55,221 nucleotides of DNA from positions 1 through 55,221 of the forward strand of contig SVJA01000013.1 of the NCBI GenBank assembly GCA_015069195.1. Reading direction: 5' to 3'. Positions 23,772 to 45,236 of the stretch are shown one piece after another. Below the pieces are notes generated by a model. The model did not search any database. It saw only the letters and a list, made by a program, of their open reading frames with translations, and had not been told where the DNA came from. This DNA comes from Oscillospiraceae bacterium (GTDB lineage: Bacteria; Bacillota; Clostridia; UBA1212). A program made the position numbers and the translations under genes. The stretch's first letter is position 1; each line of letters starts with the position of its first letter.

Positions 23772-24068
23772 ATGGCAGATGTTACTTTTGATATCAGAAG
23801 AAAGGTCGGTGTACTTGCCGATACGGGTAAAGGTTGGAAGAAGGAGTTAAATGTTATCAGTTGGAATAACAGGGAACCGAAACTTGATATTCGCGAGTGG
23901 AGCTCGGATCATTCCAAAATGAAAAAGGGTGTTACCTTATCGAAAAACGAAGCGTCGTTATTACTTTTGCTTCTATCGCAGATTGATGATGCCGCTGTTA
24001 TAGATAAAGGGCTTGATTCGGATTCTTTGACTTTCTTTGCGGAAAATGAGATTTCGGTTCTTGACTGA
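23772..24068 (+). CDS. YdbC family PC4-like single-stranded nucleic-acid binding protein
   Basis: 98 residues; ATG 23772 behind GAGGAGG. Matches the YdbC/PC4 architecture: a strand-rich core with TGKGWKKELNVISWNNREPK, LDIREWSSDHSKMKKGVTLS and a C-terminal helix (NEASLLLLLLSQI). Known family members bind single-stranded DNA and are linked to replication or repair, though the exact role is not known. Followed by comF with overlap (24046). Confidence 0.85.
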   Translation: MADVTFDIRRKVGVLADTGKGWKKELNVISWNNREPKLDIREWSSDHSKMKKGVTLSKNEASLLLLLLSQIDDAAVIDKGLDSDSLTFFAENEISVLD

Positions 24069-24795
24069 CAGAATAAAATCATGCGATGATTTTTGTGCTG
24101 CGATTAATCGTATCAAAGATGCGGCGGCAGATATGATCTGGCCGCCGTGTTGTATTCTTTGCAAACGTTCGTGCCGGGATGTCGTTTGCAAAGAATGTAG
24201 GTCGCGGAGCAGCCTCTTTGAAGGCGGCTCCGCGTTCTCCGGTGCGCAATCATCCGAATCAAGTTGCGCACCGGCGTGCCGCGGCATATACGCCTGCGGC
24301 GTATATGCCGCGGCCTACAAAGCTGCACTGATAGAGTACAAGTTCCAGGGGCAACTTTGGATAGGAAAAGGTTTAGCGGAATTGATGTATGAAATGTTGA
24401 CCGAAAACGGTGCATTAAAAGAATGTGGTGCGATAACATATGTTCCGATAAGTGATAAAAGATTTGCCGAGAGAGGATTTGATCAGAGTAAGTTTGTTGC
24501 GGAGCTTGTAGGAAAAAAATCAGGGATAAAATGTGTAGATATGATAAAAAGGGATATTCAGGGCGGCACGCAGAGTAAGTTTAATCGAAGAGAGCGCCTC
24601 AAAAGGAGTGTAGGGCGTTTTTGTGCGACGGAAGAGTTGAAAGGGGGGCAGTTTGAAAGGGGAAAGCCTGTTATATTGATTGATGATATATTAACGACGG
24701 GGGCGACATTGCAGGAATGTGCGTCTTTGCTTAGTGGAAACGGTTGCGATATGGTTATAGGTGCGGTTATGGCAACGGGACGAAAAGATATATAA
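24046..24795 (+). CDS. comF: ComF family phosphoribosyltransferase-like protein
   Basis: 249 residues from ATG 24046, which overlaps the previous gene by 23 bases; a TTG at 24037 is an alternative and the start is uncertain. ComF proteins act in DNA uptake and recombination in naturally competent bacteria. Seen: a four-Cys zinc-finger region (CILC and CKEC, residues about 38-55), the YKFQGQLWIGKGLAELM segment, and the PRPP motif ILIDDILTTGATLQEC. Five consecutive long palindromes cover 24122-24314, the zinc-finger and linker coding region, and are richer in G+C than the flanks. The adjacent YdbC single-stranded DNA-binding partner is suggestive. Confidence 0.88.
   Translation: MRFRFLTDRIKSCDDFCAAINRIKDAAADMIWPPCCILCKRSCRDVVCKECRSRSSLFEGGSAFSGAQSSESSCAPACRGIYACGVYAAAYKAALIEYKFQGQLWIGKGLAELMYEMLTENGALKECGAITYVPISDKRFAERGFDQSKFVAELVGKKSGIKCVDMIKRDIQGGTQSKFNRRERLKRSVGRFCATEELKGGQFERGKPVILIDDILTTGATLQECASLLSGNGCDMVIGAVMATGRKDI
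24122..24314. repeat. array of five consecutive palindromes inside comF
   Basis: P1 24122-24147: CGGCGGCAGAT, ATG, ATCTGGCCGCCG with one bulge. P2 24154-24196: 14-bp perfect stem (ATTCTTTGCAAACG). P3 24203-24234: 12 of 13 bp (CGCGGAGC plus GCCT). P4 24239-24274: 11-bp perfect stem (CCGGTGCGCAA). P5 24278-24314: 17-bp perfect stem (GCCGCGGCATATACGCC, 3-base loop). They are separate sequences, do not overlap and nearly abut. Nothing similar appears elsewhere in the window. Confidence 0.9.
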
Positions 24796-45144: not shown

Positions 45145-45214
45145 TACAGGGCGGCATCCCGACAGATGCCGCCCTGTAAAATTAAGCCCGACCGCCAAAA
45201 GCGGTCGGGCTTAA
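45145..45214. terminator. two tandem perfect hairpins between convergent genes
   Basis: First: TACAGGGCGGCATC (45145-45158) with GATGCCGCCCTGTA (45165-45178). Second: TTAAGCCCGACCGC (45182-45195) with GCGGTCGGGCTTAA (45201-45214). Both are perfect 14-bp stems with short loops. They separate the rhodanese gene and the ZIP transporter and probably terminate both. Confidence 0.8.
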
Positions 45215-45236
45215 CCATAACATATTTGCTAAAAAA

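Follow-up and report, generated by a model that had tools for sequence, protein, structure and literature searches.

The gene comF, located in a 55,221-nucleotide stretch of DNA that was analysed as a whole (the window), carries five palindromes back to back in the part that encodes its zinc finger. They had been pointed out in an earlier interpretation of the bare letters (the sequence-only reading), and the question they raise is how such an array arises, and is kept, inside a protein-coding sequence.

The comF locus

The comF open frame and the gene directly 5' of it are located as follows:

23772-24068, + strand, ydbC-like gene with a PC4 domain (PF02229), also the neighbour of comF in the same-genus relative (L033:3676-3972)
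24037-24795, + strand, comF (ComFC-like) open frame with a PF00156 phosphoribosyltransferase domain and a four-Cys zinc ribbon

The zinc ribbon and the phosphoribosyltransferase domain, which together mark ComF/ComFC proteins, could both be identified, the latter as a PF00156 match and the former by a CxxC..CxxC pattern that is invariant in the ComF alignment. Homologs of comF were found in 52 of the 58 genomes searched. The start of comF is uncertain; a plausible start is an in-frame TTG at 24061 that overlaps the ydbC stop (24061-24068), and this overlap suggests that translation of the two genes may be coupled. In the same-genus relative, comF begins with an ATG about 10 bases after ydbC. 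Downstream of comF a CotH-like gene is followed by a convergent ABC-F gene, while the genes 5' of ydbC resemble those for subunits of acetolactate synthase and for a citramalate/isopropylmalate synthase.

Five adjacent hairpins in the zinc-finger region

An inverted-repeat search and RNA folding confirmed the five palindromes as adjacent hairpins with hardly any gap between them, which fill 24118-24314 in the first third of the gene. Four of the five stems are 11-17 bp long and perfect or one mismatch off, and hairpin 1 has a one-base bulge:

24118-24151, + strand, hairpin 1: 11 Watson-Crick core pairs, one bulged G and outer G-U pairs (RNA fold)
24153-24197, + strand, hairpin 2: perfect core of 14 bp, arms 24154-24167 and 24183-24196 (inverted-repeat search and fold)
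24203-24234, + strand, hairpin 3: 12 of 13 bp paired, arms 24203-24215 and 24222-24234 (inverted-repeat search)
24239-24274, + strand, hairpin 4: 11 bp perfect, arms 24239-24249 and 24264-24274 (inverted-repeat search)
24278-24314, + strand, hairpin 5: 17 bp perfect with a 3-nt loop, arms 24278-24294 and 24298-24314 (inverted-repeat search)

The core of hairpin 2 joins the codons of both CxxC knuckles (ILCKR and VCKEC). In the 3' arm of hairpin 5, the Y-x-G motif that most ComF relatives keep reads Y-A-A (24304-24318), as if it had been overwritten by the stem.

The region 24100-24330 folded with -126.2 kcal/mol (z -9.2 versus dinucleotide shuffles) and the 213-nt coding segment with -124.1 kcal/mol. 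When the synonymous codons of the segment itself were permuted 500 times, the mean was -87.4, and the best permutation, at -105.9, did not come near the observed fold (z -7.5); sampling synonymous codons according to their usage in the genome gave a z-score of -9.4. Therefore, neither the protein nor the local codon usage forces the fold, as had been supposed from the sequence. The local rise in GC content was likewise borne out (0.58 in the segment versus 0.385 in the genome). None of the other open frames, out of 1570 from ∼1.93 Mb of this genome, contains as many hairpins as comF, and by GC-corrected fold energy the segment comes 4th among 13,293 coding windows. Both assemblies used here are drafts and one is a metagenome-assembled genome (MAG), which leaves some room for chance, codon bias or assembly error as the origin of the array, but given the permutations and a separate record, JAFTXP010000009.1, in which the array appears with substitutions but in an unbroken frame, this explanation is highly improbable.

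The five stem sequences are unrelated to each other and share no motif. The array occurs only once in the genome, where the sole additional match was that of stem 5 to itself in reverse. It matched no Rfam family at gathering score; a sub-threshold match to Atu_C7 was taken as a chance match between hairpin-rich sequences.

Conservation and covariation in a same-genus relative

The only genome of the same genus among those compared (G001) contains a contig matching JAFTXP010000009.1, which belongs to a Clostridia MAG obtained from the colon of roe deer; scans of named records for relatives turned up this contig only. In G001, ComF is 56% identical and the gene order ydbC-comF-cotH-ABC-F is the same. 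Across the array, 71 codons of the two genes align without a gap, and share 137 of 213 nucleotides and 42 of 71 amino acids. In the relative, hairpins 2-4 occur at identical codons, hairpin 1 is weak, and hairpin 5 is not formed, so that it was gained or lost between the species. Hairpin 3 of the relative is a perfect stem of 17 bp in the same place and hairpin 4 pairs at 12 of 13 bp, each with four double changes. The comF array is thus real and conserved in part.

The sequence-only reading had proposed a search for compensatory changes, and these were found. In stems 2-4, comprising 39 pairs, 26 pairs were unchanged, nine had changed on both sides and four on one side. The joint changes have a hypergeometric P of 3.4e-6, and all nine double-changed pairs are still Watson-Crick, which adds a P of 5e-5 to 3e-4. 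Three adjacent pairs of stem 3 changed together, and two of the double changes alter neither of the amino acids encoded. Among the one-sided changes, two keep a G-U pair and two break the pair.

When 372 orthologue pairs were compared in 3,323 homologous windows, the comF array stood apart in both species, at -6.3 and -7.1 SD versus -3.2 and -4.2 for the next window, and was the strongest conserved one. At 1.04, the ratio of zinc-region to phosphoribosyltransferase-domain identity exceeded that of all others among 44 same-genus comF pairs (0.51-0.94), which are not independent of each other. Such relative conservation of the zinc region is expected from selection on RNA and also from conversion between arms, since each change then has to be tolerated twice. 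The zinc region of 27 other comF genes from the order and class gave no comparable fold, with three mild cases (z -3 to -4); the array is therefore restricted to the genus among the genomes compared.

The alignment also bears on an origin by in-frame insertion of mobile palindromic elements of the Rickettsia type, which had been suggested as well. The spacer after the second CxxC is somewhat longer in the genus members than in most relatives, as an insertion could explain, but the ungapped alignment, the separate sequence of each stem and the lack of any related copy or sequence family in the genome make it very unlikely. Of the proposed repeated insertion with inversion, the insertion part is not supported by this alignment; the inversion part is partly right, being close to template switching, in which an arm is copied as reverse complement.

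Hairpin islands elsewhere in the genome

Hairpin islands could also be observed in the coding parts of other genes, among them spoIIM, spoIIIAD and the following six, whose islands are GC-rich:

L146:12281-13417, - strand, hemW (the strongest of these islands, -8.0 SD)
L100:13715-15919, + strand, feoB
L042:10562-11851, + strand, folC
L066:6297-7508, - strand, yqfD-like gene
L068:67-2454, + strand, gene for a large membrane protein
L135:4204-4995, + strand, ABC permease gene

The hemW island pairs an arm that codes for part of the conserved GGGTPS motif with an arm from a variable region; G001 has no close hemW match.

Perfect coding stems of at least 11 bp were in excess in the two genus members (29 versus 11.3 expected from codon shuffling, p 8e-6), in a count that leaves out gene starts and with them the comF array. 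For stems of at least 12 bp the numbers were 11 versus 3.3. E. coli and controls from the order showed no excess of perfect coding stems of at least 11 bp (1 versus 2.3 expected), and the difference between genus and controls has a p of ∼0.03. Coding stems with one mismatch were not in excess in the genus (53 versus 49). The excess at genus level is modest and concerns perfect stems only.

Strand symmetry, G-U pairs and a possible function of the array

A selected transcript is expected to use G-U pairs and to fold better in the sense than in the antisense direction. In the ranked window of comF the two energies were nearly identical (sense -109.5, antisense -109.2), as they were for the feoB island (-120.2 and -120.3) and the folC island, whereas the average coding window favours the sense strand by 6 kcal/mol. 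The hemW island is an exception (sense -112.9, antisense -94.4), so that the hairpin islands are mostly strand-symmetric. G-U pairs accounted for 2 of 52 pairs in the long helices of comF and for 7.5% over 15 islands, compared with 21.6% in background helices. In coding stems with one mismatch, G-T outnumbered A-C on the sense strand by 15 to 3; this asymmetry, seen earlier over all open frames, weakened to p = 0.08 after gene starts were trimmed, so that little reliance is placed on it.

Perfect, strand-symmetric stems would suit a function of the DNA itself, as extruded cruciforms or as protein-binding sites, for example in recombination or DNA uptake, roles that had been considered for the array. 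Five unrelated stems with no common motif, no repeat of them in the genome, and sequences that drift between the species while the pairing stays do not support such a role, and it is considered improbable.

The main rival to the explanation preferred below is a selected mRNA structure that acts in the comF transcript and whose pairing is kept by ordinary compensatory mutation. It might, for example, slow ribosomes over the zinc-ribbon codons, or protect the ydbC part of the message, which lies upstream, against 3' exonucleases and thereby give the members of the operon different doses. The array shows covariation at conserved positions, as structured RNAs do, and this across 44% protein divergence; the doubly silent changes, the relative conservation of the zinc region, the rank of the array among the 372 orthologues and the conserved order ydbC-comF-cotH also argue for selection on the transcript. 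On the other hand, G-U pairs are hardly used and the antisense fold is as strong, the one-sided changes break pairs as often as they keep them, hairpin 5 is not common to both species, all other comF genes examined lack the array, no known RNA family was matched, and similar islands occur in unrelated genes. Taken together, a selected mRNA structure is possible but rather doubtful. If it is true, the array would be an unusually dense regulatory element within a gene.

Absence of exonuclease VII

ExoVII is a 3' single-strand exonuclease and, together with ExoI, one of the E. coli enzymes that act against quasipalindrome mutation. Its subunit genes xseA and xseB were missing in both genus members (G000, the genome of the window, which is 96% complete, and G001) and in the two genomes of the genus g12 (G022 and G026), and were present in all other searched genomes of the order (27 of 31). 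The interval from nusB to dxs holds xseAB in G012 and G011. G000 has an unrelated gene for a FAD protein after nusB, and apparent ispA, ybeY and phoH genes in front of dxs; since the nusB and the ispA-dxs regions lie inside contigs, the absence of xseAB is not due to a contig gap. Loss of SbcCD or RecJ as a cause of palindrome tolerance was dismissed, SbcC, SbcD and RecJ being present in the genus. The two g12 genomes also have no detectable comF, and the link between ExoVII and palindromes concerns one testable lineage. Mutations at quasipalindromes are prevented in E. coli by single-strand exonucleases that act in the 3'-5' direction (PMC3820800).

Template switching as the proposed explanation

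The explanation put first, with about an even chance of being correct, is that the hairpins were created and are kept by template switching during replication (quasipalindrome correction), filtered by selection on the protein and probably helped by the loss of ExoVII. At an imperfect inverted repeat the polymerase would for a moment take the opposite arm as its template, and the arm written in this way would become the exact reverse complement of its partner. Only changes that the ComF protein tolerates in both arms would survive, and a new change in one arm would be copied into the other, resulting in co-evolution by double changes and in slow evolution. Template switching would thus be the cause, and the loss of ExoVII would raise its rate.

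Quasipalindrome mutations are known to perfect a repeat by copying one arm (PMC6357072), and template switching can both create hairpins and maintain them via compensatory changes (PMC8794818). In comF the arms are perfect or near-perfect reverse complements and change together, the nine double changes including the three adjacent ones in stem 3. The genus-level excess of coding stems that are perfect but not of those with one mismatch, the near-equal energies of the two strands, the scarcity of G-U pairs and the missing xseA and xseB also speak for template switching. No single switching event was caught between the two distant species, the arms of hairpin 5 differing about equally from the relative, and no loop inversion was seen between them. 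Several observations count against template switching. The extreme position of comF in the two species is more than a uniform mutational process predicts, and the unusual conservation of the zinc region, the lean towards G-T and the sense preference of hemW point the same way; the last two leave room for a contribution of RNA. A combined scenario is tentatively entertained, in which a lineage without ExoVII accumulates coding palindromes genome-wide by template switching and the comF array is a long-lived case, perhaps co-opted as a regulatory structure of the mRNA.

Relation to known systems

The closest precedent is found in the mitochondria of Nematomorpha, whose protein genes also contain perfect inverted repeats with both arms coding, show an excess of perfect and not of imperfect repeats, and gain and lose repeats between species (PMC6649704), as seen here for hairpin 5. 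Mikhailov and colleagues read the perfect-only excess as pointing to repeat conversion, for which they propose template switching (PMC6649704). In contrast to those mitochondrial repeats of up to 284 bp (PMC6649704), the array studied here lies in a bacterial chromosome, its longest stem has 17 bp, and it forms a packed row of five hairpins in which double changes could be counted between species. With it, the coding palindromes of Nematomorpha mitochondria, themselves unexplained, may have a counterpart in bacteria.

Perfect stems and compensatory changes of several bases that stem from arm copying are also known from template-switch hairpins of RNA genes, which were studied by ancestral reconstruction (PMC8794818), whereas here coding DNA of only two species is compared. 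Homogenization of arms in protein genes, with amino-acid changes, has been described for template switching in yeast coding genes (PMC8604942); those are single recent events in strains, while the comF arms were kept over a deep divergence. The palindromic elements of Rickettsia are likewise in-frame palindromes inside genes, but they belong to a dispersed selfish family and lose repeat identity over time (according to PMC6649704); comF has neither a dispersed family nor an extra segment compared with the same-genus orthologue.

Covariation is usually taken as proof of a functional RNA. Since the stems of comF are perfect and strand-symmetric and lie in coding DNA of a genus that lacks ExoVII, a mutation process may imitate such covariation in coding sequences. 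How coding sequences are shaped could thus be tied, in a testable way, to losing an exonuclease of DNA repair; if the ExoVII loss does account for the array, this would be a natural case in which loss of repair reshapes a protein-coding sequence and mimics the covariation of RNA.

Further hairpins were observed at two other sites. At 45145-45215 of the window two adjacent perfect 14-bp hairpins lie outside open frames of at least 100 amino acids, and at L047:9311-9555 five consecutive hairpins run from upstream of a ThiF/TcdA-like gene into its start.
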